From: Acanthamoeba lenticulata
Taxonomy: Eukaryota > Discosea > Longamoebia > Acanthamoebidae
DNA: 64,000 bases
Reading direction: 5' to 3'
NCBI GenBank assembly: GCA_002179805.1
Contig: NAVB01000092.1
Coordinates: 1-64,000 of the forward strand
The notes beneath the pieces are model-generated. The model ran no database searches. It was not told the DNA's origin and was given only the letters and a program-made list of their open reading frames with translations. Shown here piece after piece: positions 58-63,504 of this stretch; the stretch's first letter is position 1; the number at the start of each line of letters is the position of its first letter. The position numbers and the translations under genes are program-made.

Positions 58-1693
58 GCCCGCTGGTGGCGATTATCGGGCTGCTGGTGGTGCCCTTCAT
101 CTGGAGCGTTCCCCAGGCCATCATGTCGGCCGAGCTGTCGCTGATGATGTCCGAGAACGGCGGCAATATCGTCTGGTAGGATTGCGCCACGCCCACACGA
201 CCACCACCCTCGACTTTGGGGTCTGATATCTGCAACAACAACCTATCGCGCGACATCGTCATCATCATCAGGGTGCAGCGAGCGTTCGGTGACTTCCTGG
301 GCTGGGTCAATGCCTACAACATCATTTGCGCCAACTTCACCACTCTCGGTGCGCACTCGTGGCTTTTGCTTCTTTTTATGTTTACATTTTTAACAATTAT
401 TATTTACTTTTTTCATAAAATGGATTGTTCTTCGACGCAGCCATGTACCCGGGCCTGTTCATCGACTACCTGCCAGTGCACTTGACCTGGTGGCAGGAGC
501 TACTCATCCAGGTGGCCTTCCTGGCGGCCGTGGTGGCCATCAACATCATCGGCGTGGACTTTCTCAGCCGCCTCTCGCTGGCCATCCTGTTCGTCATCCT
601 GCTGCCCTTTGTCATCGAGGTGGTGGCCATCCCCGTGGAGGGCTACTTCGACCCCAAGGCCGTCCTCGACACCCGCAGCTTCGGCTCGATCGACTGGGCC
701 CTCTTTGTCAGCGTCATCATCTGGAACCTCGACGGCTTTGACATCATGGGTCCGTCCTCTCACGACGCTTTCTTTTTCTTTTTCTTTTTGCACTCACCGC
801 GCATCATCCGGCCACCAGGCGCCATGGCGGGCGAGGTCGAGGGCGGGCGCGGCACCTACCTCAGGGGTATTGGCGCCATCACACACACACACACGGCCGT
901 GCTTGAACACCGGGCGGATGACGTGGCATGACGTCACGCCTCTCTCTTCTTTTCTCTTCTTTCCTGCGCAGGGATCGTCTGCACGGTGCCGCTGCTGTGG
1001 GCGACGTACGTGGTGCCGGTGGTGCTGGGCTACTGGGTGGTGCCCGACTGGACGCAGTGGCAGGCCGGGTTCTTCCAAACCATCGCCGAGAAGGTGGGCG
1101 ACTGGCTCGGGATCCTGATGACCATCGCCGCCGCGGTGAGCAACTTTGGCATGGCCAACGCGCTGATCGCCACCCTGGCGCGCACCTGCTGGGCCATGGC
1201 CCTCGAGGAGGGTCGGGCGCAGAAGCTGCCGCGGCCCGTGGGTTGGTCCGTGCGGCGCAAGGACGGCGAGGTGGTGCCCGTGGCGGCCCTCCTCATGGTG
1301 GGCGTCGTGTGCTGCTTCCTGGCGCGCGTGCCTTTCAACGAGCTGGCCGAGGTCACCACCCTCATGCGAGTCGTCAACATCGCCCTCCAGTATGCGTCGC
1401 TCTTTGCGCTGCGCTTCTTTGAGCCCCTCACGCCGCGGCCCTTCCGCGTGCCCGGCGGGAAGGTGGGCGTCTTCCTCCTGGCCGTGCCGCCGCTGTCACT
1501 GGCCGGCTTCCTCATCTTCAACTCGGACCTCAGGAACCTGGGCATCGCCGCCCTGGCCAACGCCGTCATCGTCGCGCTCTACCTCCTCCACTGGCTCATC
1601 TTCTACATCCGATCGCGCCTCGCGCCGCCAGAGGCCGCCGAGGTCAGCCCGCTCGCGCCCAACACGTCACTCCAGATCCAGCGAGTGGTGTAG
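58..1693 (+). CDS. APC-superfamily amino acid/polyamine transporter, 5' end outside the window
   Basis: This is the 3' part of a multi-pass membrane transporter of the amino acid-polyamine-organocation superfamily. Exons that keep frame are 58-175, 272-348, 441-749, 819-866 and 972-1693. The first visible exon encodes the segment around [15 protein letters not shown] and SENGGNIVW. This matches TM2 and the following loop of plant PUT/LAT-type polyamine and cationic amino acid permeases (FIWSIPEAL.TAE, PENGG). Joining exons 2 and 3 gives [11 protein letters not shown], which corresponds to the NALYP.LFLDYL segment of that family. Later exons hold further hydrophobic helices, the RPFRVPGG motif typical of APC permeases, and a short cytoplasmic tail ending at a TAG. 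The substrate is inferred only from family resemblance. The first exon or exons and the start codon lie to the left of the window. Confidence 0.85.
929..936. promoter_or_regulatory. TGACGTCA palindrome, APC transporter intron
   Basis: CATGACGTCACGCC lies inside the intron between exons 819-866 and 972-1693, next to a half-site, GATGACGTGG. Confidence 0.5.
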
Positions 1694-1940
1694 CCTCACT
1701 GGCCTGGCTCGACTGGCTTCCTGGGGAGGTTCTGCTGCTACACGTGTGGTTTGTGTGCAACGCTGAACAACTCAAAGAAGCCAAGTTTGAAGTGCTCCCT
1801 CGCCTTGCCTCCGCGTCTCGTTCTTCTTCGTTTCTGGGGTTTTGTTCGCGGAGTTGTGTTTGGAGGCAAACAATCATTTAAGAAAAACATTTCAACTCAT
1901 CTTTTGATCGTCATCTCTGTCATCGGGTAAGATTTGAAAC

Positions 1941-5393
<3,453 letters not shown>

Positions 5394-5550
5394 CACACGG
5401 AAAGTTCAACTCTCTCATAAACGCATCTGTGACTCCTCTCTTGAAGGCTTGCCTTGTGCGGCAGCAGCCCAGGACTGCTCGGTTCGCTTTCCTTCTGTGT
5501 CCAGACCACACCAGGAAATAACCGGCCACCCCTTAGGGGTCAAAGCGAAG

Positions 5551-8000: not shown

Positions 8001-8514
8001 ACTCTTTGGCGTCAAAACTGTTCTTTGCCTCCTCGAGACGAGGCGTTGGCGTTTCGGTACCCACCACGGTATGGTGTGCCAAGAAGGTGACGGTGGCGCG
8101 GAGTGTCGACGCAAAACCCTTCACCAGAACACGCTTTGGTGCTTTCGTGCTACTGCGTGTGTGAAGGAAGCCTTAAGATTAGAGCTGGCAGACCTTGAAC
8201 GAACCACGTGTTTGTTGTAGTTTGCACAGTTGTGGCGAAGCTGTATGGACTTTCAGGTGCAAATCGCTCATCTATCGATTCTGCACAACTAAGGATCGAT
8301 TGTGGCCAGCGCTATCAGCAAATTCAACGGTAAGTTGTCTTTTTGCTTCCTCAGCCTGAAGAACGTCTTTGTGATGCATGTTTTCATCCTCTCTTTTCTT
8401 ACTTTCTTGATTCATTTTTGCTGCGTCAGATTTTTCTCGCTCTCGTTCGGGCTCATCAACTGCCCCGAATCTGTCAACTGCAGACGTAAGCGTAGGAGAA
8501 AAGGAACCTTCCGG
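8001..8514. other. Intergenic region and probable 5' UTR intron of the TRPML gene
   Basis: These 514 bp lie between the RasGEF stop and the TRPML start codon. No coding exon is convincing. A plausible 5' UTR intron runs from a GTAAGT donor near 8330 to a CTGCAG acceptor near 8484. I see no repeat or RNA gene. Confidence 0.5.
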
Positions 8515-11500: not shown

Positions 11501-12669
11501 GGCCGGCCAGGAGGGGCCCGGCAGCAACACAGCCACACCGCACAGGAGATGGACATCTTCGACCTGTTCCGCATTCTCGACCGCGAGTACAACACCAACG
11601 ATGACGACGATGAAGATGACATGACACCCGCAGAGGAGATCGAACTCGTCTCTGGACCTTCGGGCGACGAAACGGACCGCAGCCATGCGAAGGAGGCCAA
11701 GGAAGCGGTGAAGGCGAAGAAGGAGCACGACAAGAAGAAGCATCACGAGGAGGATAAGGAAAAGGACGAGAAAAAGAAGAAGAAAAAGTACAAGCAACGC
11801 AAGCAGAAGCGGGCGGCAAAGGAGTGGAGCGACGAGTCCGAGGACGACTACGACGACCATGACACCGAGGTGGTCGGATCGGCCGGCAGCGGCAGCAGGG
11901 TGGGGCCCGTCCCATCGATCTTCTCCATCAACGCCAGCACCTCCGATGGTGCGTGAGGAGCTCTCTCACCCCCCCCCCCTCCACCACCGCAAACCACAGG
12001 CAGCCATGGCTGACGTCACGTGCTTGGCATGCCGGGCTTGTCTGGGCTGGGCTGGGCTGTGTGTATGTGTGAAGCGCTGAACATCGGAATGGCGAGCCTG
12101 CTCCGACAGGGCCTCGGGGCGCAGACCGTCGAGCGGGCCGCCAGGTGCGTGCCCCATTTTTATTTATTCATTATTTTTTTGACGGGTGGCCACTGGTTGA
12201 CTCTTGGTGGCCTCACATATGTGTGCGCGTACAGCTATGAGTCGCCCCGGCACACGCCACCACGATTGCGGCGCGCGACCGAGATAGGCAACATGCAGCC
12301 CGCCAATACGCCACGCACCTTCAACATCCGCATCACCTACAAGAAGCTCAAGGTAATCATTGTTCACTTTGTTTTATTCACGTTTTGTTTTGTTTATTGA
12401 TGTTTGTTGTGGTCGTGGTGGTGCTGGTGCAGCGGGACTTGAAAGAGATCGTGGCCGACCAGATGGCCGAGTTTGAGGAAGAGCTGAGCATGCAGGTGCT
12501 GGAGCTGCAGGCCAAGCACACGGCGCGGCTGCAGAAGCGCGTGAAGGGGCAGCTGCAAAAGACGTTTGAGAACCTGCTGCTCCCGGGCGCGGCCGCCATG
12601 TCGGCCGCCTCGTGGGACTCCTACGCGCGGGGCCTCGGCGCCTCCGAGTACCGCGAGTCGCCCTTCTAG
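8515..12669 (+). CDS. Mucolipin (TRPML)-type endolysosomal cation channel
   Basis: This is a six-TM TRP channel related to mucolipins, which release Ca2+ and other cations from late endosomes and lysosomes. The N-terminal exon (about 8515-9090) has a cytosolic leader, then SPWQKWKKYNRVPWKVVL leading into TM1, as in TRPML. The large lumenal loop follows, with segments such as HNTFEDLFLVQG and the VVFNLTQDSPFGPF region. Later exons carry TM2 to TM6. The key signature is the pore segment ITLFALLNGDDIR (about 10938-10978), which equals the FSLINGDDMF selectivity filter of mucolipins. After TM6 (FITAILNIFIFIIEDSYH, about 11155) there is a long cytosolic tail not typical of animal TRPMLs. It has an acidic DDDDEDDM block, a Lys/Glu-rich stretch, and a final coiled coil around RDLKEIVADQMAEFEEEL. 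About a dozen introns are present, one carrying an A-rich microsatellite. The start was chosen at the first ATG after the likely 5' UTR intron. Confidence 0.88.
10456..10558. repeat. (AAAAAAC)n microsatellite in a TRPML intron
   Basis: About 100 bp of near-perfect AAAAAAC heptamer repeats, with a few shorter AAAAAC units at the 3' side, sit in the intron between the exons ending EEFGYKT and starting GMAYSIMEG. The acceptor CAG is at 10564-10566. Confidence 0.95.
12011..12018. promoter_or_regulatory. GCTGACGTCACG site, TRPML intron
   Basis: It lies in the intron between the exons ending SINASTSDG and starting ALNIGMASLL, followed by an overlapping CACGTG. Confidence 0.5.
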
Positions 12670-15986: not shown

Positions 15987-17017
15987 TCACACCACAGTAA
16001 GGCCCGGGTGGAGCTGCATGACTTGGTTTTTGGTGAGGGCGCTGATGCCCTCGCGGCCAAGCACGATCTTGGTCAACGACGGGCACAACTCGGGCGCTTG
16101 TCTGCACCCCCAAAAGAGCCGTAAGTCGCCGTGAAGTCGCCAATGCATCGACAACAACGGCAATGGCAATGGCAATGGCGGAGGCGGCGCACCGGAGGAC
16201 GGCGGCGTCAAAATGCGGGCAGCCGGGGACGGCCAGGGTCTCGAGGTGCGGGAGCAGCCGGAGGGCCTGGAGGAAGGTGGCCTGCCTGAGGTTGAAGCAA
16301 TGCGACAGCTTCAGGTCGATCAGGTTCCTGCCGCAGCGCCGCAGCACGTCGAGAAGGGCCTCGTCGCCCACGTTGGGGCAGGCCGAGAGGTCCAGGTCCC
16401 GCAGGTCGTTGCAGGTGTCGGCCACGCACTTGAGCGTGGCGTCTGCGATCCCGCTCGACTGCGCAAACACGACCGACGACAGGTTGGGCATCCTGCGGTC
16501 GGCGTGGGTGCGTGATGACGTCAGCATCAACATTAACCATTGGACCTTGTTGATGACAACGTGAGCGGACCTGCTGATGAGGCTGATGGCCATGTTGTCG
16601 GTGAACTGCGGGCAACTGGACACGAAGAGGTACTGCATGCTGGTCAGCTCACAAGGCGCAGAGACCTTTCTCTCGTCGTCGTCGCCATCCTCCTCCTCAT
16701 CCTTTTCCTCTTCATCGCTGTCGTCTTCATCAGTGGCAGCGCCGTTCATGTCGTCCACGAGGCCCTCGCAGCCTGCGATGATGCGCGCCACCGCCGCCAC
16801 CACCGCACCAGTGAGCGGCAGGAAAAGAAGAAGAGGAGAAGGAGAGAGGGACCAGAGAGGTAGAGCTTGGCCAGGGCGGGCAGGTTGTCGAGAAGCTGGT
16901 GGAGGCACCGCATGCTCGTCAGCCGCGTGCAGTTGGACAGGATGATCCACTCCAGCCGCGGCAGGAACCCTATGCGCCATCCGCACGCACGCACATGGAC
17001 GGGCGGTCAGCATCTCG

Positions 17018-17085
<68 letters not shown>

Positions 17086-20012
17086 ATTGTGCGATTGTGC
17101 GCGGGCGTGTGTGTTGCACGCACCGTTGGCGAGGTGGAGGAGGCCCCGATTGCCGATGTTCGTCTCCGACAGCGAGAGGTAGAGCAGGCGGGGCAGCCGC
17201 GCGAGGGCGGCCAGGTGGGCGTCCTTCAGTTGCGTCGTGCGCGACATGTCCTTCACGCGGTCATCAGGAGTGTGTCAGCCTTCTCGAGTTTAGAGAGAGA
17301 GGGAGTGGACGAGAAGGAGGCGGGCGCGCACGAGGGCCTCGAGGGCGTGCATGGCGGCGAGGCTGCCGGCGTCGTGGCGCAGCGCGGACATGAGCGGATC
17401 GCAGCCCGAGAGCTCGAGCAGCTTCATCTCCGGGCAATGCCTGGGATGATCAGGGCACACACGCCACGTCAGCACACGTCAGCACACGCATGCCACAATG
17501 ACGTCAGCACAGGAGGGGAGGGAGGCTGCTGGAGAAGGGGACGGACCGCTGGAGGGTGGGGAGGAGCTTGGCGGTGAGGCGCTGGCAGTTGGCCAGGTAC
17601 AGCGTGTTGAGGGACGGGCACTGGCGCGCCACCTCGCACAGCGCCAGGTTCGTCACCTGCGGGCAGCCCGACAGGTTGAGCACCTGATGGCGGTCGTTGT
17701 GGTTATGAATTCTTCACGGCTCATCACCAGCCAAGGAGAGATGGAGATGATGATGACGATGAAGGTGAGGGTACGTTGAGGTCCTTGCAGTTGTCGGCGA
17801 TCTCGAGGACAGCGATGTCGGAGATCAGATAGCAGCCCGACAGGTACAGCGCCCGCATCGCTTGGCAGCTTTGTAAATTACAAAATGGTTTTTGAAATCA
17901 ACACCCAAACAAACGAAAAAAATAACAGAATTAAAAAGAACAATAACTAATAATTTAAAATGATATTTTAACAAGCAAAAGAGGAGCGCCAGGCCGGTAT
18001 ACTTGCGGGCGATGGTCTGTACTGTGGCGTCGGTGACGGCGGGGCAGCTCGACAGGTAGAGCGTCCGCAGCTGGCGGCAGCTAACGACACACGGCAGCAG
18101 CTCGGGTAAGACAAGCGAGAGCTCCCACGACAAGCCTTGATGGGGCCGCGTACTTGGCGCCGATGGCTTGTACGGTGTCGTCGGTGACCGAGCAGCCTGT
18201 GAGGTCGAGAAACTGGAGGGTCGCCGCGCACGCCGAGCTCGCTGGACAGACGGGAGGATGACGTCAGCTTCGCGTGGACCGCCACCTTAATAAATGTGCG
18301 CGGGGGATGGCGCACCGATGGTGGCGAGCGCGGCGTTGGAGATGTGCTTGCAGCGGCCGATGATCAGCTCCTCGAGGTGCGGCGCGCGGGCGAGGAGTCT
18401 CGCGAGGCCAAACGACTGCGTCGCACCGGCGGCGGCTTTGTCGCTCAGGCGGCAGCGCGACACCGACAGCGCCCGGAGGTCCGCGCAGTGCTCCGGCAGC
18501 GCCTCAAAGATCGCAGCGTTGGTGATCTATAGTACCATCATCATCATCACCACCGTCGCCATCATCATCATTAGTGAGGTGGGCAATCACTCACAGGTGC
18601 GCGGTGGTATGTGAACCTTGAGGCAGCCAAAGACGACGAGCTCCTGGAATTCGGGGCACGCACGCACCAGCGCAAAGATGCTTTTGTCGCTCACGTTGGG
18701 ACAGCGGGTCAGGTCGATCTTCCTGAGCGGGGATAGAGTGAGTGCCATCGCTTCATGAAAAAGAACAAAAAAGCAAAGAAAATGGAAAAACGAACCGGAG
18801 ACGGGGACAAAGGGCGGCCACGGTGGCAACCACCGCGTCGTCCACGCGCGGGCATCGCGACAAGTCGAGGCTCGTCAGCGGCAGGATGCCGCCGGGCGTC
18901 TTCTCTGTCCTCGTGCGTGTCGCCGGTCAGCCAACGGCACACGACACAGACGACACACACGACACACACGCACCGGCGAGCTGGGTGAAGAAGGTGATGA
19001 GGTCGTGGGCCGAGAGGTTGACGCAGCGCCCGAGCGAGAGGTGGAGCAGGTGGAGGCATGGCGTGTCGACGATCTGCTGGAGGGCGTCGCGCGTGAGGGT
19101 CTCGCCGCCGGCCAGGCTCAGCCGCTGCATGTCGGGCGCGAGGAACGCCGCGACATTGGCGTCAGTAAGCGCCTTGCGGCTGATGGCCGTCGCCAGCAGG
19201 GACTCGGCGATGGGCAGCGGCAGGACGGCGCTGAACGACTGCGCCCCGAGGCCGCGCAGGGCCGGCAGCAGGCCGGCGCGCATGACGGCGTCCACGCTCA
19301 GCTCCCTCAGCGGCAGCACGCCCCTGACCGTCCGCGGCCGACGCCCATCTAACGAAGATGATGATGACGTTGATGATGGAGCAGAGGACGAGCCGGCGCT
19401 GGCATCGTCGTTGATTTTGGTAAAGTGGTAGATGGAGATGAGCGCCTGCGGCGGTACGTCGCCGTAGATGTCGTGAAGGACGGCCTCCAGTTCTGGCCGG
19501 CCGCTGAAGCCGTCGAGGCGGGCATCGGCGTCGGTCAGGGCCGCGTAGGGCTTCACCACGAGCCGCGTGATGCGGATGGCGCCCACAAACTCTGCACCAC
19601 AGCCGGTCAGCCACAGTACAAAAGACGTGGTCAAGCCGGCAGCGCAGGCGGGCCACCTTGGGATGGGTTGAGCTGCAGTGGCAGTACAGGCGCAGTGGGG
19701 CAGTGGATGCGACCGGGCGAGTAGCGGATGGTCGTGGTCTTGGCTCCGCTCTGGATCAGCGGGTAGAACTCCTCCCTGGCCGTGTCGTGTCAGACGTTGC
19801 ATGCACTTTAGCTTGAGAGAGAAAGGAGGTTGCAACCTGAGGCCTATGACGTCTCGCAGATGGAGGGGCACATCGTTAAAATCTTGGTGCAGCTGCTCGT
19901 GCAAGGCAGTGGCACTTGAGATTGAGCACTTGACAGGGAGCAAGTCAGCATCAACGTTCACTGGTGCCTCACCATGCAAGAGAAGACTGTAAGTGCAAGA
20001 TCCATGTTCCAT
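15987..20012 (-). CDS. ASCH (YqfB/ac4C amidohydrolase-like) domain fused to a cysteine-containing LRR array
   Basis: The start codon is at 20012 (MEHGSCTYSLL). An early exon (about 19777-19650) encodes EEFYPLIQSGAKTTTIRYSPGRI, and the next (about 19590-19350) encodes FVGAIRITRLVVKPYAALTD and PELEAVLHDIYG with YHFTKI. Together these match the short ASCH-fold protein YqfB: a GRKTITIR segment, then TELKKVIADIYPG. The YqfB catalytic residues Lys21, Thr24 and Glu74 have equivalents here at codons 19739-19741, 19730-19732 and 19491-19493. After the ASCH domain come about a dozen leucine-rich repeats of the cysteine-containing type seen in AMN1 and FBXL proteins, for example LYLSSCPAVTDATVQTI and LDLTGCSVTDDTVQAIG. 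They are spread over many small exons and end in LHPGLTVV and a TGA. No F-box was found. The stop lies 26 bp from the convergent decarboxylase gene. Function is inferred: an RNA- or nucleoside-acting domain coupled to a protein-binding solenoid. Confidence 0.75.
16516..16523. promoter_or_regulatory. TGACGTCAGCA site, ASCH-LRR intron
   Basis: GATGACGTCAGCATC lies in the intron just upstream, in gene orientation, of the exon encoding MPNLSSVVFAQSS. Confidence 0.5.
17017..17085. repeat. (GTGC)17 tetranucleotide microsatellite
   Basis: An uninterrupted run of about 17 GTGC units is followed by degenerate GCGATTGT copies to about 17100. It lies in an intron of the minus-strand LRR gene, between the exons encoding LLHLANG and FLPRLEWIILSNC. 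Confidence 0.95.
17499..17506. promoter_or_regulatory. TGACGTCAGCA site with two CACGTCAGCA neighbours, ASCH-LRR intron
   Basis: Within 17465-17508 the word ACGTCAGCA(C) occurs three times in the same orientation. The last copy has the full palindrome. Confidence 0.55.
18259..18266. promoter_or_regulatory. TGACGTCAGC site, ASCH-LRR intron
   Basis: GATGACGTCAGCTTC lies in the intron before the exon encoding LQFLDLTGCSVTDD. Confidence 0.5.
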
Positions 20013-20110: not shown

Positions 20111-20181
20111 GGCGCCGTAGTTAAGTGGTAAAATTCTCGCTTAGGGTGCGAGAGGCCCCGGTTCGATTCCGGGCGGCGCCC
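20111..20181 (+). tRNA. tRNA-Pro(AGG)
   Basis: The acceptor stem pairs GGCGCCG (20111-20117) with CGGCGCC (20174-20180). The anticodon stem CTCGC/GCGAG encloses the loop TTAGGGT, giving anticodon AGG, which decodes proline CCU. The T arm has the canonical box B GGTTCGATTCC (20160-20170), and box A is TAGTTAAGTGG (20118-20128). The anticodon arm and its flanks match metazoan tRNA-Pro(AGG). There is no intron, and CCA is not fully encoded. The gene lies on the plus strand between two minus-strand protein genes. Confidence 0.95.
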
Positions 20182-25200: not shown

Positions 25201-26931
25201 GCCGGAACCGTTCGACTACTCGCTGGAGGTGGCCGAAGAGCTCCTGGTCCGCATCCGCTCCCGCGCCCTTGCCTTCCTCTTCTTCCCTCATGAGGCCAGC
25301 TTGCTCATAGCGCATTCTCTCGTCATCATCATCATCATTTGCGCGCCACACACACACGCACGCAGGTGTTCACGGTGACGCTGTGCTACAGCTTGATGGC
25401 GCCGCTGATCACCGTCTTCGGGTTCGCCTACTTCGTCCTCGTGTTCTTCATCAATCGCTACAACCTCATCTACGTCAACGAGCAGCGGTGGCAAGGCGGC
25501 GGTACTCCCACTCGCCTCCCCCCCACCCAATCGAGCATGGCCCGGCCTCACCCACGCGCGCACCTGCAGGGACCATGTGGGAGTTTGTTTACCACCTCTT
25601 CATGTCGGCCATCCTCCTCTTCCAGCTCATCATGCTCGGCATCCTCGGTATGCAACTCGCTGCCGCGCTTTCAAGCTTGGGGCAGTGTTGTGCTGACGTC
25701 AGCATTACGTCACGTCGGTGATGGACAGGGCTGTCGCAGTACGGCGGCGGCTTTACGCTCACGGCGCTGCCCTTCATCACGGCCTTTCTCTGGTTCACGA
25801 TCCACCGCTACTGGCACCACACCACCACCGGCGGTACGCACACGCTCTTTCCCCCTCATCTAGCGCTGCGGCTTGGCTGAAGCCCTCTCCTCCCTCGTGT
25901 GCGTGCAGGGCCGCTCGAGGGCACCGACGTGCTCCGGCCGACGTCGTGGGACGACTTCGTCGGGGCCTACCTGCAGCCGCCGCTGCAGAACGAGGAGGAG
26001 GACGTCGTGGACGACGGGTGGTACGACGAGGACGCCGAGTCGAGCGCCAGCCCGGACCGGACCGTCAAGCCCCTCGACGAGTCCACTCTGGCCGGCGCCG
26101 AGCTGTGGAGCTGGAAGACCTCCCAGATGCAGACCACCCTGCGGTTCGTCCTTCTTCCTCCTCTTCGTCGTACTTCTCGTCCCCGTCGTCTTCCTTGCTC
26201 TCGTCCTCGTCGTCGTTCTCGTCCTTTTCGCGCCGCACGACAATGACGTGGAACGTGGCGCGTGCAGGCGGGGCAAGAACAAGCTGCTGGGCTCGAAGGC
26301 GAACCACGCCTTCATCTCGCCGCTGCTCGACCCGCTGCTGGGCGACGACCTCCTCCTCGACTTGACCTCCGACGCCGACGACGATGACAACGACGAGGAG
26401 AAGGACCGCGGCACCTACCAGCGCCCGCGTTTGGGCAGCGACGCCGACGGCAGCGGCAGCAGTAACGGCAGTAATGGCGGCAGCAACGGCGGTGGCGAGG
26501 CGAGCCGCCGAAGTCGGCGCGGAAGCGACGAGGCGAGAAGGAAGAGCGAGGCCCGGAGGTCGAAGGAGAAGGGCAAGATGACCGACAAGCAGACCAGCGC
26601 GCGGCACCGCTCGATCGAGGAAGTAGAACGTGAGGAGGACGCGGGCGTGCGTTACAGTGTCGGCGGCGACGTAGAGCGCGGCGAGATCGGCGGATGGACT
26701 CGTCGGCGAAGCAGTGGCGATGACGGTGAGGATGCCGCTGAACCAGTCCACATCGTGCCTGACGTCGAGCAGCAGCTCGAGGGCGCGCAGCAGGCGATGC
26801 CAGTGCCACCAGTGCGACGGCGCTCGGGCGCGGGCGCAGCGGCAGGCGAGCGCGAGGACAGCGTCGAGGCGACGAGCGACGAGAGCAGCCTCGGCTCGAG
26901 TGAAGACAGCAAACTCGTGCGCCTCAACTAA
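22294..26931 (+). CDS. CSC1/TMEM63-family osmosensitive cation channel
   Basis: This is a DUF221-type channel protein. Family members are hyperosmolality- or stretch-gated Ca2+-permeable channels in the plasma or endosomal membrane. The start at 22294 gives MEEEEVLMVPRVEQL. The first TM is YINLTIGALCIIGFSLI, followed by HLYKFYAPRKK and a TM with LMFVGVTVILPINFSGN. That last segment corresponds to the conserved ILLPVN..G region. The cytosolic domain has SFTLLLRDIPDRLMDKPEL (the family's R.IP motif), a coiled stretch and SAFVTFDSMYPA. The core channel exons include the GALTVLIVVWIFPVVAVQSL helix, VFLVSTVGGTLFK, SGFFINYLLVIA (the family's FF..Y....), FGRLPLK and FDYSLEVAEELLVFTVTLCY with FVLVFFINRYNLIYV. 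The tail (25930-26931) is acidic and Ser/Gly-rich. There are about 18 introns, one with a perfect CRE-type MARE. Confidence 0.9.
25692..25705. promoter_or_regulatory. Perfect 14-bp CRE-type MARE, CSC1-like intron
   Basis: TGCTGACGTCAGCA is identical to the consensus CRE-type Maf recognition element. It is followed by TTACGTCACGTCGG, in the intron before the exon starting LSQYGGGF. Confidence 0.6.
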
Positions 26932-31952: not shown

Positions 31953-34900
31953 TCAGGACTCAGGGTCATCATCCTCATCGTCATCGGCGTTGGCCTTGCT
32001 GCTGCGCTTCTTCGTCTTCTTCTTCATCTTGCGCGGGGTGCCCTTGGACTTCTCCGCGCCCTTGGCGTGGTACTTGGCCACCCACTTGCTCACAAAGGAC
32101 TCGATGCACTTGACCTCTGGCGTTTGCCACACGGGGTTCAGCTGATTGTCCAGCGTCTCGTTCTCGCCCTGCCGATTGGGTGGTGATTAAAACAACATAG
32201 CAACATATCTACATGACGACAATGGTGGTGTGTTGGGTAGTTGGGTCTAGAACCTTGCTCGAGGCGCGCTGGACCTTCTTGAGCTCGCCCTTCTCGTCGG
32301 TGGTGTAGGAGTGGTCCTCCAGGTGGCCGTCCTTGACCAGCTTGCGGTAGTAGTTGGCGCACTGGTAGCCCACGAACCCGGGCACGCCCTTGGAGAACAG
32401 GCCCCACGCCGTGCCGATGATCCACCCCTCCCGCACAAACTCGTCGTACCGCGCCATGAACGCCTGCGCTCCACGCAGCCAGCCGCACGACACACGACAC
32501 GCGCGCGCACGACACACACTCAGTCACAGTACGGGACATGGGGCTTGGGCCGGAGAGGGAGGCGAGGCGCGGACCTCGTGGTTCTCCTGCTTCTGCTCGG
32601 TCGTTGAGGCGCGGTGCGACTGCTTGACGACCGGGTCTGTACACGCATGCGCGCGCGCGTGTGCGCAGCTTGTAAGACACACGCGCAAACACATGCGCAC
32701 ACACGCAAGCACGCACGCACCTTCGAAGCGGTAATAGTAGGCGTTGGCGTTGTCGTGGCGGAGCTTCCAGGCCGTGAGTCGCGCAGCGGACCACTTCTTG
32801 ACGGTTTCTTCGTCGAACGGGTAGCGGATGGTGACGACCGCCCCCGACTCGGGCGACACCACCTCCTGCACGCGGTCGCACTCGCGCGGCTCCTGTGGAT
32901 CGGCCGAAGCTGACGACGACGACGACTTCTTGGGCTGCTTCTTCTTTACCTTTGTCGACGCCTTGGCCTTGGTCGTCGCCTTGGGCGGTCGCTTGCCCGC
33001 TTTGGCCTTGGGCCCTTTGAGGGCGGCCGTCTTCTTCTTCTTTGTCGTTCGCTTGTACTCTTCCTCCTCTTCCTCGTCGTCATCTTCATCATCTTCGTCG
33101 TCCTCTTCATCCGCGCTCTCGTCGTCGTCATCATCATCCACTTCATCATCATCATCATCATCGTCGCGTCGTCGTCGCCGCTTGGCGGGCTTCTTCTTGC
33201 CCGCATTCGACACCGCTCGCTTGTTCTCCTTCTCCGCATCATCGTCATCTTCATCTTGATCAACTTCATCATGATCGCCATCATCTTCACCATCCTCATC
33301 ACCATCATCGTCCTTTGTTCTCCGACGCTTGGCGCCGCCAGCAGAGGTCTTGGGGCCCTTCGTCGCCTTGCGCTTGGACGACGGGCGAGTCGGCGTGGCG
33401 AACGTCGCCTTCGTCTTGGCCGCCGGCTGAACCAAGTAGGCGTCGATCTTCTTCTGCTGGACGCCGGTGAGCTCCTCGTCGCAGATCTTCCGGTGGATGA
33501 TCTTCTTCCGCTTGATCGGGATCGGCGGCGTGAAGGACGGCAGCCGTGCTGAGCCGCTGCCGCCCAACGACTGCCGCCGTTTGCGTGTCGTGGCCGTCGC
33601 CGCGGCCGCGCCGCCGCCGGTGATGGCCAGCAGCGTCTTGTCGGCCGCGCCAAGCAGACCGCCCGGGACGGCCGCGGTGGTGGCGGTGGAGGTTGATGAG
33701 GCCGAGGCCCGCTTGCGCGGGAGCTGCGGCGAGGCATAGGCCGGCGGGGACACGCCGTAGAGCGAGGCGATAGAGGGCCCGTTCTTGCCGCCCAGCGACA
33801 CGGCCCGCCGCACCGCCCGCACGGTCCTCTCGAAAAAGTCTGCGTGCCCACACAGACAGCAGCCCAGCGTGACGTCAGCAACGCCAAGTCGACACAAAAC
33901 AAGAGCATAAGGGGATTGACCGCACCGATCGAGGGACCGGTGGTGAGGCCGTGTACGCTCTGCTCGTAGGCCATGAGCTGCTGCTTGAAGCCGTCGTTGA
34001 TGTTGAGGTTGGGCGAGAGGTTGGCCAAGTGCTCGTAGGCCCGCTTCAGCGACCACTTGCAGTAGCGCATGAGGTAGGCGATGATGACCGTCGGGCTGCG
34101 GCTGCGGCCTTCGCTGCAGTGCACCAGCACCGCCGGCCCGTGCACGCCCTCATCGTCGGCGTCCATCGGCTTCTGCTGCTCCTCTGGCTTGGCCTCGCCC
34201 TGCGCCTCGGCCTCGACTTCGGTCTCGGCCTCCTGCTTGACGACAGGGTCCTCCTGCGCCGGCTCAGGCTTGAGGGCCGACACGTCCGCCTTGTCCGAGA
34301 CGACGGTCATAGCGTCGTCGACGTGGCCGCCGTCCGTGGCCGTGGCCGTGACGGGAGCGGCGGGCTGGATAGCGGCCAAGTGGGCCTTGTCGACATATTT
34401 GCGCTCGACAAAGGAGCCGATGACGCGGTGGATAAAGTCGGTGGCCTCCTCGAAAAACTTGTCGATCCGGTGCGTGCCGTCGTCGGCCACGCGGATGCGA
34501 TGATAGTTGATGACGGTGTTGTCCGTCGCGGCCTTCTCGAAAAAATTGCGGACCTCCATGCTGGCGTTGACGACGTGCGTGCAGCGGACCTGCGCCAGCC
34601 AGTCCTCGTTGGAGGCGACGTGCTTGCTGCCGAGGTAGAGCCGCGGGATGACCATCTTGCCGGTGGTCCGCTCGATGACGCGGCGCTCGTGCTCCTCCTC
34701 GAGGCGCTTCTTCTCGAGCAGGAGCTGCTCCTTGCGCTCAAAGTTACGCCGACGGCGCTCGTCCTCCTGGGCGGCGCGCAGGGTGGCCTCCTCGGCTTCG
34801 GCCGCCGCCTCGGCCTGTCGGTTGATCGCGTCGGCCCGCGCGGTGTAGTCGTCCTTGGCGGCCTTGGCCAGCGCGCGCCAGGCCTCGCCGTACTTTTTCT

Positions 34901-39143: not shown

Positions 39144-39151
39144 TGACGTCA
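39144..39151. promoter_or_regulatory. TGACGTCAGC site upstream of the Kelch-BTB gene
   Basis: GATGACGTCAGCTTT lies 134 bp before the Kelch-BTB start codon and 43 bp after the stop of the preceding gene. It is the best-placed copy for a promoter role. Confidence 0.55.
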
Positions 39152-42283: not shown

Positions 42284-43816
42284 TCATACGGGTCGAATGC
42301 CGGCCCACTTTCGCAGCTCCTCGTAGATGGTGAAGGCCATGATGGTGTGCGGGCCTGCCTCGGGTGAGCGCGTCGTGCGTCAGTGTCGGGAGGGACGTCA
42401 GGAAGAGAGCGTGGCGGCGTACCGAGTCGCATGAACGTCGGCACGAAGCCCTTGTAGAGGCCCAGCACGCCCTCGGCTTGGGCCGTCTGTACGATCCTTG
42501 ATGACGTCAGCGCACGCAGACCAGACAGAAGAAGAGGACCTCCGAGAATGTCGCGACTCGCGCACCTTGATGAGGCAATCGAGCATGCCGCGGTAGACGA
42601 CCGGCGTGCCGGCCGAGCGGTTCATGATGCGGGTCTTGACGACGTCGATCGGGGTGGAGACCACGGCCATGGAGAAGCCGGCCATCATGCCCGCACTGCC
42701 GGACACGTACGCGTTTGAGTTGGAATCGTGCCAACATGAGGGCTGCGACTAAAGGGCAAGAGAGGCCGAACCAGATGTGGGCGTAGACGTTGTCGTGCGC
42801 GATCCAGCCCTTGCGCAAGATGAAGTGCTTGCTGTGGTCGTAGGAAGACATCATGGCGGCAGATAAGATACAGGCGCGCTGCGTGGTGGGCACCACGCCC
42901 TTGTAGAGGCCGCGAATGCCTTCTGTTCGCGCGATGGTGACGAAGCCGTCCAGCGTGTTCCTGTAGCGCGGCTTCTCTCCCGCGGCCTCGGCTTGCATGC
43001 GCACCTTGAGCACGTCCGTTGGGGTGGCGATGGCCGCGCCGATGCTGCCCGCGGTGGCTCCTGCCAGGAGCTTCTTCCAGAAGGGCAGGCCGCCGTCTGA
43101 GGATGCGGCGTGAGACGACTAGACCTCGACTATTGTAGAGCGCTTCAGTCTTTTTACTTACCCTGTCGTCCACCGGTTCTATCTTCGCCGAGTAGCGTCT
43201 TGATGGGATCGTACAAGGCCAGTCGAATGGCCGCATAGGAGCTCTCCCGCAGCGCCGCAGGGACGAGGCTGGGCAATGTAAGCGCCTATGGTAAGGGCAA
43301 GCCATGAAAGCGCTGCGGTTCCTGAGTTCAATACCCTTTGTAGAGGCCAGCCGGACCCTCGTCTCGCAGAATCTGAAGCCCGCCGTGGAGGAACCCCTTG
43401 TACTTGCGCTCTGGAGGGGAAGTTGACCGGTGAGCAACATGTTCATGGCACAGCGAGGCTCAACGCTAGAGGGGAACTCACCACGGCCGTAGATGCGGCT
43501 CAGGCCGCTTTGGGTCTTCTCTTCGTGCAGCTCGCCCTGGAGCTGCAGCCGCGTCTTGATGACCTCGATGGGGTTCACGACTGTCACCGCAAAACACAAA
43601 CACAAACAAGAGGTTGAAGTGGTGCTCATAAACGTCCACACACTCATTGCTGTGGGGAGACGCACCAGGCAAGGGCGCCGTGCACGAGACCATGCCCAGG
43701 AAGAACTTGTGCCACACCTCGCCTTCCTTCTCTGCAGCGCGGGCGGTAAAGGTGTCAGGTCATGCGGTTGCCGTCCCATAGGACAAGGCGAAGCAGGCGG
43801 TACCTCGAGTGGCCAT
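42284..43816 (-). CDS. Mitochondrial carrier family (SLC25) protein
   Basis: The exons spell three mitochondrial carrier repeats. The start at 43816 gives MATREKEGEVWHKFFLGMVS after an in-frame splice. The three signatures are VVNPIEVIKTRLQLQ, IATPTDVLKVRMQAE and VVSTPIDVVKTRIMNR, all of the form P.[DE]..[KR]. Each repeat is followed by the [DE]G...LYKG element (EGIRGLYKG, EGVLGLYKGFVPTFMRLGPH). The last exon is GPHTIMAFTIYEELRKW with RPV and a TGA at 42286-42284. These are inner-membrane exchangers of metabolites. The sequence is closest in style to the uncoupling protein/dicarboxylate branch, but I cannot name the substrate. A frame upstream of the chosen ATG remains open without an ATG, so the N-terminus may be slightly longer. 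Confidence 0.85.
42502..42509. promoter_or_regulatory. TGACGTCAGC site, SLC25 intron
   Basis: GATGACGTCAGCGCACG lies in the intron before the carrier exon encoding EGVLGLYKGF. Confidence 0.5.
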
Positions 43817-46741: not shown

Positions 46742-46749
46742 TGACGTCA
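46742..46749. promoter_or_regulatory. TGACGTCA palindrome, intergenic
   Basis: CTTGACGTCACCAAG lies in the gap between VPS4 and the lipase gene. Confidence 0.4.
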
Positions 46750-51500: not shown

Positions 51501-53707
51501 GTCGATCGTGTTTTGGCGCGGCGGCTTCCACTTCATCATGCGCTCGCAGTAGCCCAGCCTGTTGCCCCAATCGCCCACGTCACGCCACGTCAGCATCTTC
51601 CTCCTTCTTTTGTCGACAAGCGCCTCCCTCGAGACTCAGCTCGTACCTGTAGGGCGTGTAGACGGGCATGAACAGCAGCCCGTCGGTGGGAAAGAAGCTC
51701 GCGTTGTCGTCGCCCTCCTGGTCGTCCTCTTCGTCATCGCCGTCGTTGTCGCGGCCCTCGTCGGCGTCGGCCGGACGGTCGAGGCAGCCGTTGCGGCGGT
51801 CGCGCTGCTGGTCAAAGACGGCATGAATGCGGTCGAGCGAGTGATAGTCCTGGAAGACGAGGCTGAACGGGGCGGCCTCGATGAGCTCAATGACGGGCTT
51901 GGCCAGGCCGAGTCGCTCGTGAAGCGGCATGTGGCATACGTGCTCGCCCTCGGCGCAGAGCACGTCAAAGATCACAAAATACCACCGCACGCCGCTTTCG
52001 CTTTCGTTCTCGCGTTCGTCTTCGTTCTTTGTCGGCACGGCCACGACCTCGCCGTCGAAGATGGTCCGGTTGTAGCGCGCGGGAAAGCGCACGGCCGGGA
52101 AACGTTCGACGCGCATGCGGCGGTCAACCAAGTAAAGGCGCTCGGCGAGCAGAATGAGGAGCCGGCGCTCGCCGTCGATCTTGGGCGCCACGCGGTAATC
52201 GTCGTCGAGCAGGAGCTTGATGTTCTTGCTCGTCAGCGCCACCGGGTGGCTGCCCGGGAAGCGCGACGCCGGCTTGCTGCTCCGCACCAGCAATTTGAGC
52301 TGCACTCGACACGTGAGCCACACATAGCGCACGACACGACACACATGCGTGCGTGCGTAGAGATGGGGACGCACCTGCTGTAGGAGGCTGGCCGACTCGG
52401 CCGGGCCGACGCGCTGGGCGCCGTCGATGCCACCGCCGCCGCTGCCGCTGAGGTCGACGGTGGTATGCGTCTTGGGGCCGTCGCGGTCGTCGTGGTCGGC
52501 CTGGTTCTCCGGGAGGTCCTTGCGGTCGGTCATGCGGCACAAGGTTCGCGGCGAATCCGCTTCGGTCAGCTTGTCGACGGTGCGCCGGAGCGCGGCGTGC
52601 ACGGCCTCCACGCCGGGCCCCGCGTCGACCCTGCAATAGGGCGGGAGGCCCGACTCGGCGCGCTTCTGGAAAAAGTCGTGCACGACGGCACCGTAGGTGG
52701 CGTAGGCCCGCTGGCGCACCTCGATGCCGTGCGCGTGAAGGTCCTCGACCCGCTGCGTCAACTCCTCGCCCGTCACCTGCACCCGCGTCAGCATGACGTC
52801 AGCACATGGCGCGAACATGACGTAAGCGTGACGTCAGCATGCAGGAGAAAGGCGAGCGCACGTCGTCGAGGCCGGGCCTGCGGGGCGGTTGGGCGTCGAG
52901 GTTGTAGATGCGACCCGAGGGCACGTGCACGCGGCGTGCGAGCAGGCGCTGCGTCGCGACGTCGTCGCTGACCGCCAATTCGATGACGCCGTCGAGTCCG
53001 ATGCCGCTCGCCGTGAAGGCCGCCGCCAGCTGCCAACACACCACCACCGCCAACTCGACCGGTGAGCCGCACGTACGCACACACGCGCGTGTATTGTGTG
53101 CTGCGCACGCGGGCGCGCGTACCATCTCGGCCTCGCGGTGGGTGCGCGGGGAGCCGTCAAGCACGAAGCCCTTGCCGGTCGCGAGGGCCTTCTTGATGGC
53201 CGACAGGACGAGGTCGTTGGTGATGGCGGACAGCTTGTCCAGCTGCCAGTGGTCGTCCATGTACTGGCCCAGCATGCTGCCCTCGGCCTGCCGAGAGCCG
53301 GTAATCAGCATTAGCATCGGCATCGGCACATAAAGAGGACCGCCGGGGGCGAGGCGAACCTTCTCGCGGCGCAGGAGCTCGCCGCTGGAAATGACCTCCA
53401 AATTGTACTGCGAGGCCAGGCGGCTGCAGTGCGTGGTCTTGCCTGTGGCAGAGCAAAAAAAGTGGCAGTAATCAATAGAACGCCTCACAAGCGCAAGTGT
53501 AAGCGAAAGAGCATGAACAAAAATGTAATTATTCGTTGTTTTGTGTTTTGCGTGGTGGAACGGTCGAGCAACTTTCCCAAACAAAAAAAATAGAAATAAA
53601 CAAGTAATAAAAATAGAGCTGGATGTACCTGCGCCCGGCGGACCAAGCATGATAAGGTGAAGGACATCCTTTTTCTTTGGTCTGCTCAAGCCGGGAGGCG
53701 CTTGCAT
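48549..53707 (-). CDS. Adenylate kinase - mRNA capping guanylyltransferase fusion with RS/Gly/Gln-rich tail
   Basis: The start at 53707 gives MQAPPGLSRPKKKDVLHLIM. The first splice makes the P-loop GPPGAGKTTHC. An adenylate-kinase domain follows: VISSGELLRREKV, MLGQYMDDHWQLDKLSA, GFVLDGSPRTHREAE, RRVHVPSGRIYNLDAQPP and LDD joined to VTGEELTQR. One continuous open frame (52780-52380) then links the kinase C-terminus to the guanylyltransferase. All six capping motifs follow: KIDGERR (GMP-accepting Lys, codon 52182-52180), FDGEVV, WYFVIFDVL, DGLLFMPV, MMKWKPPRQNTIDF, and IVECHWDP with GWRFHR/IRTDKATPN. The next large exon (about 50885-49172) is low complexity: RS repeats, poly-Gly, poly-Gln and His/Tyr-rich stretches. 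Its TGA is bypassed by a phase-0 splice to DASGSGSPTTPRPRREWNQF. The last exon ends LLMLASRLCAATT with a TGA at 48551-48549. The final two junctions are unresolved. No RNA triphosphatase domain is present. Confidence 0.83.
52783..52836. promoter_or_regulatory. Cluster of TGACGTCAGC sites, kinase-guanylyltransferase intron
   Basis: Two full TGACGTCAGCA sites (52794-52801 and 52829-52836 cores), one TGACGTAAGC and one GCGTCAGCA lie within 54 bp of the intron between the LDD and VTGEELTQR exons. Confidence 0.55.
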
Positions 53708-56900: not shown

Positions 56901-57946
56901 GGCCAGGGCGAACCATCGTAGAAGGGAAGGGTCTTGACGCCGACCTGGAGGGCGAAGAGGCCCTGCTCGCTCTTGCCGAGCGGAGTATAGACGCGCACGA
57001 CGACGCCGTTGCTGGTCTTGTCCTCCACGTAGTCGAACTCGCCCACGACAAAGGCCAACAGGTAAGTCGACATGATGGGCGTCTCGCCAAAGGTCACGGC
57101 CTTGAGGTCGCCGGCCTTGTCGGCCTCCGACACCTGCTCACGGTCAAGCGGCATCACAATGGTGGCGAACGATGTCGTCAGTGACGGTACACACGTGTGA
57201 GATGCAGGTCAAGCTGGCGGCCGTACGACGGGCATGTTGGAGAGGGCCGTGAGGTTCTTGGGCACCACCATGGTCAGCACAAAGGTGGCCTTGATCGCAG
57301 GCTCGTCCCAGCAGGGAAGGGCCCGTCGGGCGTCGGTCGGCTCGAACTGGGTGGCACCCATGTAGACCTCCTCCTTCTTGGCGTTGGTGTACTTCGACCG
57401 GTAGAATCTGCCATCGCGTTATGCCACAACACGCGAGCATAAGACACACGGCACAGAGAGGGAGAAGCTCCTGGCGTGATGCCGGTGGTGCTGGTACCCC
57501 TTGAGCTTGTCGTTAAGGATGCCAGTGAAGGTCACCTTGAGCTGGGCGGGACCAACAGGCAGGGTCTGGTCGAACGCAAAGGTGGCGGTCTCGCGCTTCT
57601 CGTCGTAGTCAATCTTGGTGGCAGTGAGCGCCTTCTCCCCCGACTTGAACTCAACGCTGCCGATCTTGAGCTCAATAGCATTAAGCACGATTTCGTTGGT
57701 CTCCTTGAGGACCTCGATCGTAACCACTTCCTCGCCACTACGTAAGAGAATGATGGCCCATTAATTGATGACATTACACAGCCGGTTAAATTTGCTGCAA
57801 GCGTTTGGCAGATGTGCCACAAAAAGATGGCAGTACTAGTACCTGAAGGTGAAGTTGACGAGGTCAGGCTGCAGGGTGACGTCATACTTGGACGGCTTGA
57901 CCGTAGTCGGCAGGATCACTCGGGGCTTGTGCGACTGCTGCTCCAT
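53974..57946 (-). CDS. M1-family zinc aminopeptidase (puromycin-sensitive type)
   Basis: This is a cytosolic-type aminopeptidase that trims N-terminal residues from peptides. The start at 57946 gives [20 protein letters not shown] and YDVTLQPDL, the usual opening of the puromycin-sensitive group. Later exons give [20 protein letters not shown], where the family reads QFE.TDAR.AFPC.DEP, then [16 protein letters not shown]. The substrate N-terminus motif is GAMENWG, and the zinc site is [18 protein letters not shown] with NEGFASW. The C-terminal ERAP1_C-like helical domain continues through [18 protein letters not shown] and LYAAYKNE-like helices, and ends [10 protein letters not shown] with a TGA at 53976-53974. 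All zinc ligands and the GAMEN motif are intact. About 18 introns are present, several of them AT-rich. Confidence 0.95.
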
Positions 57947-58124
57947 TCTGTATATTCTCGTACACTGTAATTATGGCCAAACGTGTGCGATCAGCAGGAC
58001 TACAGATTGAGTGCCACGCGATCTACGTTCACGCTTTACTTTAGTCGACACATAAATGCTTTCTGCCAATTTCCGTCTTAAATTTCGTGGTTCGCTAAAA
58101 AAGACAAAAAGAAAATAGTTGCGC

Positions 58125-60558: not shown

Positions 60559-60676
60559 CGTGAAGGTTGTGTATGTTTTTTTTTTTATTATATAAATTCA
60601 TTTTTATTTATTTTGTATTTTGTCGTTTATATTTTCTTTTTCCTGCAGCAAGCGGAGAAAAAGAGAGACGGGGAGG
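60559..60676. promoter_or_regulatory. Short divergent promoter between the IPK1 and PPR-like genes
   Basis: 118 bp lies between the divergent start codons. It is very AT-rich (60575-60650), with long T runs on the plus strand. Confidence 0.4.
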
Positions 60677-63504
60677 ATGAAGAAGCTAGGCGCTCATCTG
60701 TTGCCCTCTGCCTCGTGCAGAATGAAACGCACGAGTTGCACACAGCTGCTCGCTCGTGCCGCTGGTCTGGGCACCACCACGACAAGGTGCGCGCTTTGTT
60801 GATAAATGTACGGCAAAAAATCGTGATTAAATCAAGATGTCGTGGCTGGCACGATTGTGATGGTGCGCGCGCAGGAGTGCGAGCCGCAGCGCAGAGCTCA
60901 GGACTGCCTCGCCCTGGCGCAAAACGGAGAAGTGGGCGGGCGAACACAAGTCGCGGCCGAAGGACTTGATGGCCTTTGTCCCTCCCGAGGAGGTGCTCAC
61001 CGCGGGCCTTGATGAAGAGGCCGAGCGCTACTACGCCGCGGCCTCCGTGGGCGAAGAACTCGATGACGTGCCCATGCGCGACTTCACCACGCGCGAGGTC
61101 AACGCCCGCATTCAGACCTTCGAGCAGTCCCTTCCCGCTCCACACGACGTTCGTTTCTGGCCACCATTTCTTTTCCTTTTCCTTTTTCTTTATTTTTGGA
61201 GGATGCAACTGACCGTTGTTGGCTCTACACGTCACTTCGCTACGTACGCAGAGGTCGTCCAGAACCAACCCGGTGGTCTTCCACCACATGTACATGGAGG
61301 AGTTTGTCGATATCGACGACGACTTGACCCTGCCGCCGCGCCTCAAGCCCGGCCAGTCGGTCTCGGTCATGCAGGTGGTCCGCCTGCTGCGCCACTTCCA
61401 CAACACGAAGGACACCCGCACGCCCGAGGCCAACCGCGAGCTGCTGAACCAAGTCCTGGCCCTAATCGACCGCATCGTCATCCGCGTGGGCTTGTCCGCC
61501 GCCGAACAACACGTCCCTCAACGCGACGCGGCGTGGCACCGGCGCAAGCAGGGAAAGAAGCAACAAGCCTCGAATGGAGATGATGATGATGACGACGACG
61601 AGGGCCTGTTCGTGAACGAGCGCTATGCCGAGCACGTCTACCAGCGCTCGGCCCTGCCGGCGGGCAACACGATCCAGAGCTGGCGCACGCTCCTCACCAC
61701 GCTGGCCGAACTCAAGCAGGCCGACAAGGCCTTTGAGGTGTTTGAGTCCCTCGAGCGGCGGTTCCGGATCGTGCCCAACATTTTGCTCTTCATCGACATG
61801 TGGCGTGTGTGCCGCGACGCCCGGCGCTCGGACAAGGCGCTCGAGTACATGGACTACATGTTTGAGTACGGCCCGTTAGATGATCGTCTCTCTTGCCTGT
61901 CCACAGATAGGCCAATGGCCGCGCTGCTGCTGCTGCTGCTGCTGCTGACGTCAGCTGGATCATCCGATTGGCGGCGGCGCGCACGCACAGGTGCCGGTCG
62001 CGAACGGTGGGCTCCCACCACTGGACGAACGTGCACACCTTCAACAGGATCTTGAACGCGGTGAGCGACGCGCAAGGCGTGCTGCGCGTGATCGGCAAGA
62101 TGCGCCGCGAGGGCACCGAGCCCAACGCCGCCACCTATTCTCGTACGCACGAGCGCGTGTGGCGGGGACGATTTCGTGTGGCAGCTGACAATCGTCTTCA
62201 TCATCACCATCACCATCACCGCTTGGCCAGGCCTGATCACGGTGATGACGGAGAACCGCCAGATCAACACGGCCTTGGACTATTACGAGGCGATGAAGAC
62301 CGACGGCTTCACGCTCAGCCTCGAGACCTACCTGACCCTCATGGAGGTACGTCTCCAGCGTGTTGGCTTGGCTTGGCTTGGCCAACGCTTTGGCTGCTGA
62401 CCGGCTCGCACGACTTGACGTGGTGTTGTTGATGGCGGGCCGCATACGCACGCACCAGGGCGTGCTGCTGACGCCAACCGACCCGGAGTTTGTGTCCGAC
62501 GACTCGAGGCGCAGCCGCTTCGAGCGCGTTCGGCTCAGCCTAAAGCGGGTCGACCGCGAGCGCAGCGCGGAGCGCAAAGAAGAGGATGAGCCGCAGGTCG
62601 ATCACCTCGGTGGCGACGAGTCCGGCGAGGCGAGCTATGAGCAACTTGACCACACCTACCACATCATCCAGACTCTCTTCCACGAGCTCGAGCAACGTCA
62701 CGAGCCCAACCACGAGGCCTACTCCCTTCTCCTTCGAGTGCGTTCCTTAAAATCATTTTAAAATTGTATTTTTTTAAAATTGTTCTTTTATTATTCAAAC
62801 CTTTATTTATTAATTTTCTAAATATTCTTTTTCAAAAAATAAAATACAGACGTGTGCGCAACTCGGGCGAGCAGACAAGGCCTTTGAGGTGTTTGAGCAG
62901 ATGCAGCAGAAGGGCCACTCGCCTCAGCAATCGCACATGCTGAACCTGATCGCGGCGTGCGGCACGAGCTGGCAGGCCGAGAAGGCGCTGGACCTCTTCT
63001 GGATGATGGACCAGCGCTACGCGCTGACGCCCACGCCGGGCTGCTTCAACGCGCTCGTCGTGGCGCTCGTGCGCGCCGGCCGCTACGATCTCATCGAGCC
63101 CACGGTGACCAACGCGCACGAAGCCTTTGGCCTCAGCCCCTGGCCCAAGACCAGCGCCTTTGTCCTCTACAACGCCCTTTTGCTCGAGGTACCGACTGTA
63201 CATGGCCCGGCCCGTTAGAACGAATGCTCACGGTCGAGCGTGTGCTTGCTTGATTGATTGCCAGGACATCGAGTACGGCCAGGCCTACGCGGATATGATC
63301 TTGCGCGACTTCCCCGTGCCGTCGGCCACGCGCCGAGTGCAGAACGCGATCGGTATCCTCCGCGCCAAACAAGCCGCGGCCGCGGCCGGGGCGTCGGCGT
63401 CGTCCGCGATCGCAAACGCTTCGGTCGAGGAGCTGGTCGAGGCGTGTCTTCGCGTCCCGCCCCTCGCCGCCGAGAACCGCGAGGAAAGCCGACCACCATT
63501 GTGA
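60677..63504 (+). CDS. Pentatricopeptide-repeat-like protein, probably organellar
   Basis: The start at 60677 gives MKKLGAHLLPSASCRMKRTS, rich in Arg, Ser, Thr and Leu with no acids, like a mitochondrial presequence. An in-frame splice (TTTTR to SASRSAELRTASPWRKTEK) leads to AFVPPEEVLTAGLDEEAERY. PPR-like helical hairpins follow: SWRTLLTTLAELKQADKAFE, FIDMWRVCRDARRSDKALEY, TFNRILNAVSDAQGVLRVIG, LITVMTENRQINTALDYYEA, CAQLGRADKAFEVFEQMQQK, MLNLIAACGTSWQAEKALDL and FNALVVALVRAGRYDLIEPT. Each has the T/S.N.LI.AL...G....A...F..M pattern of PPR motifs. The family binds organellar RNA for processing, editing or translation. Low-complexity inserts rich in Asp and Arg/Glu sit between some repeats. The Ala-rich C-terminus ends SRPPL with a TGA at 63502-63504. 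One exon junction near 62000 was not resolved. Confidence 0.8.
61946..61953. promoter_or_regulatory. GCTGACGTCAGC palindrome, PPR-like gene intron
   Basis: The palindrome directly follows a (GCT)n run in the intron after the exon encoding MDYMFEYG. Confidence 0.5.

Follow-up and report, generated by a model that had tools for sequence, protein, structure and literature searches.

Bases 1-64000 of an 82-kb contig (NAVB01000092.1) in the 48.48-Mb assembly of Acanthamoeba lenticulata, hereafter the window, carry 15 copies of the palindromic 8-mer TGACGTCA, most of them in introns. This word and its GC-extended forms, which may combine an intronic branch site with a binding site for basic leucine zipper (bZIP) proteins, are the subject of the present analysis. 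Genes were delimited with a self-trained two-strand exon-intron model, built de novo without RNA on a 326-kb sample comprising the window, 10 kb downstream, 20 random 10-kb pieces, and site-centred loci (L001-L030, the first places by contig number and not a random draw). The model converged on 689 introns of median length 84 nt, with 55.6% of the sample called coding and an internal stop in one of 130 predicted proteins longer than 60 aa. Its signals are a donor G/GTACGY, whose +4 position is C in 77% of introns, and an acceptor GCAG/G; the common donor elsewhere is GTAAGT, unlike the consensus here. As the motif might have been picked up by the intron model, a second training was run with it masked; motif introns number 29 in the unmasked model and 28 in the masked one, in which the copy at L033 is called coding. 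Intron counts exclude introns shorter than 45 or longer than 400 nt, retaining 681 of the 689. Submitted as spliced proteins, four window genes with motif introns are supported by Pfam, namely the mitochondrial carrier, NSUN2, polycystin-type channel, and CSC1/RSN1 channel genes. The sites in the window are as follows.

929..936, plus strand: TGACGTCA without GC extension, in intron 867-971 of an amino-acid-permease-like gene (Pfam match below cut-off)
4361..4368, plus strand: TGCTGACGTCAGC, palindromic, in intron 4310-4388 of an NSUN2-like gene at 1941-5393 (Pfam NSUN2 domains)
12011..12018, plus strand: GCTGACGTCA in sense, in intron 11949-12074 of a polycystin-type channel gene at 8515-12669
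16516..16523, minus strand: TGCTGACGTCA in sense, in intron 16493-16570 of a minus-strand leucine-rich-repeat gene at 15987-19873 (repeats seen by eye)
17499..17506, minus strand: TGCTGACGTCA in sense, in intron 17441-17546 of the leucine-rich-repeat gene, with two more TGCTGACGTG words nearer the acceptor
18259..18266, minus strand: GCTGACGTCA in sense, in intron 18242-18315 of the same gene at 15987-19873
25694..25701, plus strand: TGCTGACGTCAGCA, a complete 14-bp palindrome, in intron 25648-25728 of a CSC1/RSN1-like channel gene
33870..33877, minus strand: TGCTGACGTCA in sense, in intron 33840-33925 of a dual-specificity phosphatase/HMG-box gene
39144..39151, strand unassigned: TGACGTCAGC between two plus-strand genes and antisense to both, 133 bp before a predicted ATG
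42502..42509, minus strand: GCTGACGTCA in sense, in intron 42487-42565 of a mitochondrial carrier gene
46742..46749, strand unassigned: intergenic TGACGTCA without GC extension, about 800 bp from either gene
52794..52801, minus strand: TGCTGACGTCA in sense, in intron 52777-52861 of an adenylate kinase/capping-enzyme model
52829..52836, minus strand: a second TGCTGACGTCA in the same intron, 52777-52861, of that model
57877..57884, strand unassigned: TGACGTCA 62 bp from the ATG, within the coding sequence of a gene whose predicted protein was identified by eye as an aminopeptidase; perhaps a chance occurrence
61946..61953, plus strand: TGCTGACGTCAGC, preceded by a (GCT)n run, in intron 61875-61990; the product of the gene is pentatricopeptide-like (by eye)

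By gene model, 12 of these sites are intronic (in nine genes), two are intergenic, and one is coding. The models thus agree with the earlier note on this DNA, which had placed 14 copies in non-coding sequence, including the introns of nine genes, and a lone coding copy in the aminopeptidase at 57877. All 15 cores that it listed were found, its 4362 being corrected to 4361. Its estimate of about one chance occurrence in 64 kb is matched by 100 dinucleotide shuffles, which give 1.01 (sd 0.96, maximum 3) against the 15 observed, and its 12 extended sites correspond to 12 TGACGTCAGC sites (15 strand matches, three of the sites matching on both strands) against 0.41 in shuffles. Among the 25 commonest 8-mer palindromes listed for the window, TGACGTCA exceeds its Markov expectation by the largest factor (15 against 1.3-1.5).

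The excess of the word is real and genome-wide. The assembly holds 2481 copies of TGACGTCA against 618 of the reversed word, 951+979 strand matches of TGACGTCAGC against 56+54, and 450 copies of the palindrome GCTGACGTCAGC against six; GC extension is found on at least one side at 1480 sites and on both sides at 450, giving the palindromic, GC-flanked TGACGTCA core that characterizes cAMP response elements (CREs) and Maf recognition elements (MAREs). The reversed word lacks the CpG, and dinucleotide shuffles of the window, scaled to the genome, predict about 765 TGACGTCA and 310 TGACGTCAGC matches, values that the counts still exceed 3-fold and 6-fold, respectively. A genome-wide count near the shuffled expectation, which the earlier note had named as evidence against its claim, did not occur. 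The window is richer than the genome, with 15 sites against a mean of 3.28 per 64 kb (Poisson 2e-6, before allowing for about 757 such windows), and sites cluster, 19 of 48 neighbour gaps in the first 31 contigs being no longer than 2 kb against 2.8 expected.

Within the 326-kb sample the word is specific to introns. Its 52 kb of counted introns contain exact TGCTGACGTCA 12 times in sense and once in antisense; 150 kb of exons contain a single copy and 71 kb of intergenic DNA none. By site, the random pieces hold six intronic, two intergenic, and two coding copies, and the site-centred loci hold 14, four, and three, respectively; these last three may belong to introns that the model missed (C1_8050 looks so by eye). 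Orientation is equally strict. The intronic sites extended on one side number 19, and every one has GCTGACGTCA on the sense strand, a result unchanged by masking the motif in training; CTGACGTCA is present in sense in 29 introns, with the antisense-only form in none. A model-free, genome-wide count points the same way, the same non-palindromic sites lying 20-50 nt after a GGTGCGY donor in sense 48 times and in antisense 12 times (P 3e-6). At G000:C17:51455-51484, two TGACGTCAGC words stand in opposite orientation about 20 bp apart; these cannot both be sense in one intron and are perhaps a promoter pair.

The position of the intronic copies provides insight into what the strand preference may reflect. 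CTGAC, the left part of the word, is found in 168 of 681 introns against 24 in antisense, with a peak 15-35 nt before the acceptor, and CTCAC behaves likewise. In 23 of the 29 motif introns, the A of CTGAC falls 14-45 nt before the acceptor, where uniform placement would give 14.6 (P 0.0008). Another CTNAY word is present in this branch zone in only three of those 23 introns, compared with 54% of 652 other introns and four of the six motif introns whose copy lies outside the zone. This scarcity of other branch words, together with the zone placement, is the pattern predicted for a motif that is itself the branch site. Three sequence features of a U2-type branch site are present, namely a CTNAY-type core in sense, a position a few tens of nt before the acceptor, and scarcity of a second branch-like word, and the intronic word is most likely the branch site of its own intron.

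The right part of the word behaves differently from general branch context. Among 115 CTGAC words near intron ends in the window and random pieces, GTCA follows in 13 against 0.44 expected, and tails one change away from GTCA number seven against 5.45 expected, such that the tail is all-or-none. After the 59 CTGAC words of random introns, the next base is G in 42% of cases, followed by T in 29%, C in 31%, and A in 24%; these last three values are near background, which places TCA outside the general branch context. A GC right flank follows ten of 29 motif copies compared with seven of 158 other intronic GTCA words, and the word thus leans towards the complete palindrome, the form that a DNA-bound protein dimer would favour. 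In some introns several words lie 11 nt apart. TGCTGACGTG words repeat beside the full word in the introns at window 17441-17546 and C4_25292, and TGCTGACGTGG, which we take to resemble an ATF6-type core, occurs three times in introns.

Copies outside introns provide a further view of the palindrome. The sample contains eight intergenic sites, six of them GC-extended. A predicted ATG follows at 49-133 bp in four of the six (C9_109418, C6_931, C4_25292, and window 39144); two of the four form the complete palindrome, and two run antisense to the gene starting there. The remaining two GC-extended intergenic sites are 454 and 647 bp from an ATG. Overall, TGACGTCA is found no more than 160 bp before the ATG in five of 133 upstream regions (one copy without GC extension) against 0.17 in shuffles, a ratio to be read with the fact that three of the five regions come from loci chosen for holding a site. 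These copies hint at a role at the DNA level. The genome also encodes candidate binding proteins: eight bZIP matches, five of them distinct by score if equally scoring pairs from separate contigs are counted as copies, with three of the five examined. The equal-score pairs (G000 contigs C304/C639, C28/C78, and C68/C941) suggest the presence of two haplotypes, or of duplicates, in part of the assembly. Compared with solved structures, two of the bZIPs are closest by sequence to an unnamed protein and to CREB, with Maf proteins weaker. The bZIP at L049 has KNREYAQESR, aligned at E 0.023 to KNRGYAQSCR of MafA, with YAQ at the Maf position, where this residue matters for recognition of a TGC flank.

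Other traits set the motif introns apart. A is present at donor +3 in six of 28 motif introns compared with 56% of others (P 3.6e-4), a deficit seen both outside the window (5/18 against 276/481) and inside it (1/10 against 89/172), and +3 A is normal in other introns with TGCTGAC (54%, n=24) or CTGACG (56%, n=57). Phase 0 is found in four of 28 motif introns against 258 of 653 others (P 0.009). None of the 28 is a first intron, nor are any of the 19 in complete genes compared with 94 of 476 others (P 0.03), showing no preference for first introns. The donor, phase, and first-intron tests were picked after looking, and their P values are uncorrected for the number of tests; the three traits speak for a functional subset of introns, and the +3 bias for participation of the full word in splicing. 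Two explanations were considered and rejected: that the word makes up for weak donors in general, since the overall donor score does not differ (P 0.89) and +3 alone does, and that motif introns form a distinct class lacking a polypyrimidine tract, since the difference is not significant (P from 0.07 to 0.33). In non-motif introns the absence of +3 A goes with longer pyrimidine runs (11.95 nt compared with 9.79 nt, P 6e-5), suggestive of compensation between the two signals. Intronic RNA genes were also discarded as carriers of the word, since Rfam gave one tRNA in the window and one in the 14 of 20 random loci scanned.

Several features of the window lie apart from the motif. The tRNA gene is at 20111-20181 (Rfam, 61 bits). 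A perfect (CGTG)17.5 tandem array occupies 17016-17085 inside the leucine-rich-repeat gene, and an AAAAACA array of about 14 copies lies at 10459-10552. The gene model at 49160-53650 joins an adenylate kinase to an mRNA capping-enzyme-type domain, representing either a fusion or two merged genes. A search for a second copy of the window, made with 16300-19300 only, gave nothing beyond two short matches. A lipase search matched 16 proteins, the best at about 48% identity, and the Acanthamoeba JDP1 primer found no match at up to 2 mismatches, a negative of little weight should the rDNA be missing from the assembly.

The word resembles three known systems in part. It is like a U2-type branch site (CURAY) in its CTGAC core, sense strand, and location upstream of the acceptor. 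PMC2483917 describes an extended branch motif, GACTGACG, in Ostreococcus, and associates a weak branch consensus with intron-rich species and strong or extended motifs with most intron-poor ones. Here, by contrast, the genome is intron-rich, the exact 11-mer is confined to a small minority of introns, and the tail, GTCA(GCA), is palindromic. The second likeness is to the CRE-type MARE. The best window copy, at 25694, is TGCTGACGTCAGCA, a 14-bp palindrome identical to the consensus of that element, and TGCTGACGTCA appears in published papers, several of them on Maf or bZIP proteins. Known CRE-type MAREs act as DNA in either orientation; the intronic copies are sense-only and lie on predicted branch sites, with orientation serving as a sequence proxy for function. 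The third is to U12-type introns, which have a near-invariant branch word and are poor in phase 0. The motif introns are likewise a minority with a near-invariant branch word and few in phase 0, but they are not of this type: no (A/G)TATCC donor with a TTCCTTRA-type branch was found in the 326 kb and the donors are GTNCGY, the U12 RNA itself not having been searched for.

We favour, with a probability of roughly 0.47, a composite in which a branch site is nested in a bZIP-type (CRE/MARE) site. In this mechanism, CTGAC, the left part of the intronic TGCTGACGTCA(GCA), would be read on the transcript as the branch site of the carrying intron, and the right part, GTCA(GCA), would complete a CRE/MARE-type palindrome, the target of a bZIP dimer at the DNA level. 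Copies before start codons would need no branch site, and they show no sense orientation. Counts establish the excess across the genome and, for the 326-kb sample, the specificity for introns, the sense strand, the placement in the branch zone, the paucity of other branch words, the all-or-none tail, and the palindromic flank on the right; branching at the CTGAC A, bZIP binding, and any link of binding to transcription or splicing are what we infer from the sequence. The proposal of a CRE/MARE-type word of introns stands as to its genome-wide occurrence, intron enrichment, and palindrome, and the bZIP role is retained as a possible second layer, because of the palindromic right flank and the four GC-extended copies before predicted start codons. 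The 11-mer UGCUGACGUCA might instead act on RNA only, providing a minority of introns with an extra-strong branch element that is recognized by a splicing factor or small nuclear RNA variant, with no DNA-binding protein involved. The strand lock, branch-zone position, all-or-none tail, and phase bias all fit this possible but doubtful alternative, as does a +3 A deficit that holds inside and outside the window and is absent from other TGCTGAC or CTGACG introns. It leaves unexplained the palindromic right flank (with its 450 12-mers) and the copies before start codons, and it would sit more easily with donor scores or pyrimidine content that differed, or with an enrichment after CTGAC in random introns that extended beyond the first G.

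Ordinary CREB/ATF/Maf-like enhancer sites in introns and promoters, overlapping branch sites incidentally, are distinctly improbable. The exact CRE core, MARE-like flanks, palindrome, encoded bZIP genes, and copies before ATG would suit such sites, but the sense lock of 19 out of 19 already strains this explanation, and zone placement, the paucity of other branch words, the lack of any first intron among the 28 motif introns, and an intergenic density far below the intronic one add to the difficulty. On the same grounds of strand, zone, and first-intron absence, intronic enhancers, the role put forward in the earlier note, are not supported as the principal explanation; of its other proposal, an intron-embedded splicing or replication signal, the splicing part fits better than enhancers do. 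A mobile element or introner remnant that brought the word into introns in one orientation could account for an exact word with few one-mismatch versions, the phase bias, the different donors, and the clustering, but is very improbable. Motif introns have 41 8-mers in common compared with 114 +/- 33 for random introns, with no sharing along the intron length beyond the word, and a dispersed repeat or introner was rejected on this basis, consistent with the earlier statement that the sites lack shared flanks, to which only a TGC...GCA tendency need be added. In a paralogue search of the sample, distant pairs (23-35% identity) involve genes with motif introns, and in no intron pair is the motif on both sides.

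Several observations weigh against the composite. The de novo gene models miss introns of untranslated parts. The promoter side of the composite consists of four GC-extended sites, three from loci fetched for holding a site. The other common bZIP spacing, TGACTCA, is not in excess, with four sense and no antisense copies in the 52 kb of introns and two before ATG against 2.80 in shuffles. A purely DNA-level tail leaves the +3 A deficit unexplained, and six of 29 motif introns have their copy outside the branch zone. The acceptor counterpart of the genome-wide orientation test is near null (GCAGG 6-36 nt on, 93 sense against 85 antisense matches, with 33 palindromes, by eye, counted in both directions), a test that is weak because chance GCAGG matches within 31 positions probably dominate.

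A broader proposal, speculative and on the whole unlikely, is that the exact 11-nt branch word UGCUGACGUCA defines a subclass of perhaps a thousand spliceosomal introns with a dedicated trans-acting factor, which might also bind the palindrome as DNA and so join transcription and splicing. If the composite is true, a minority of introns would carry a branch word, exact and locked to one strand, that is at the same time a perfect bZIP palindrome, making it a dual-coded element. The word offers a direct test of whether one word carries both a splicing and a DNA-binding signal, and the case illustrates how, when a genome is compact, an excess of CREs can be mistaken for enhancers.

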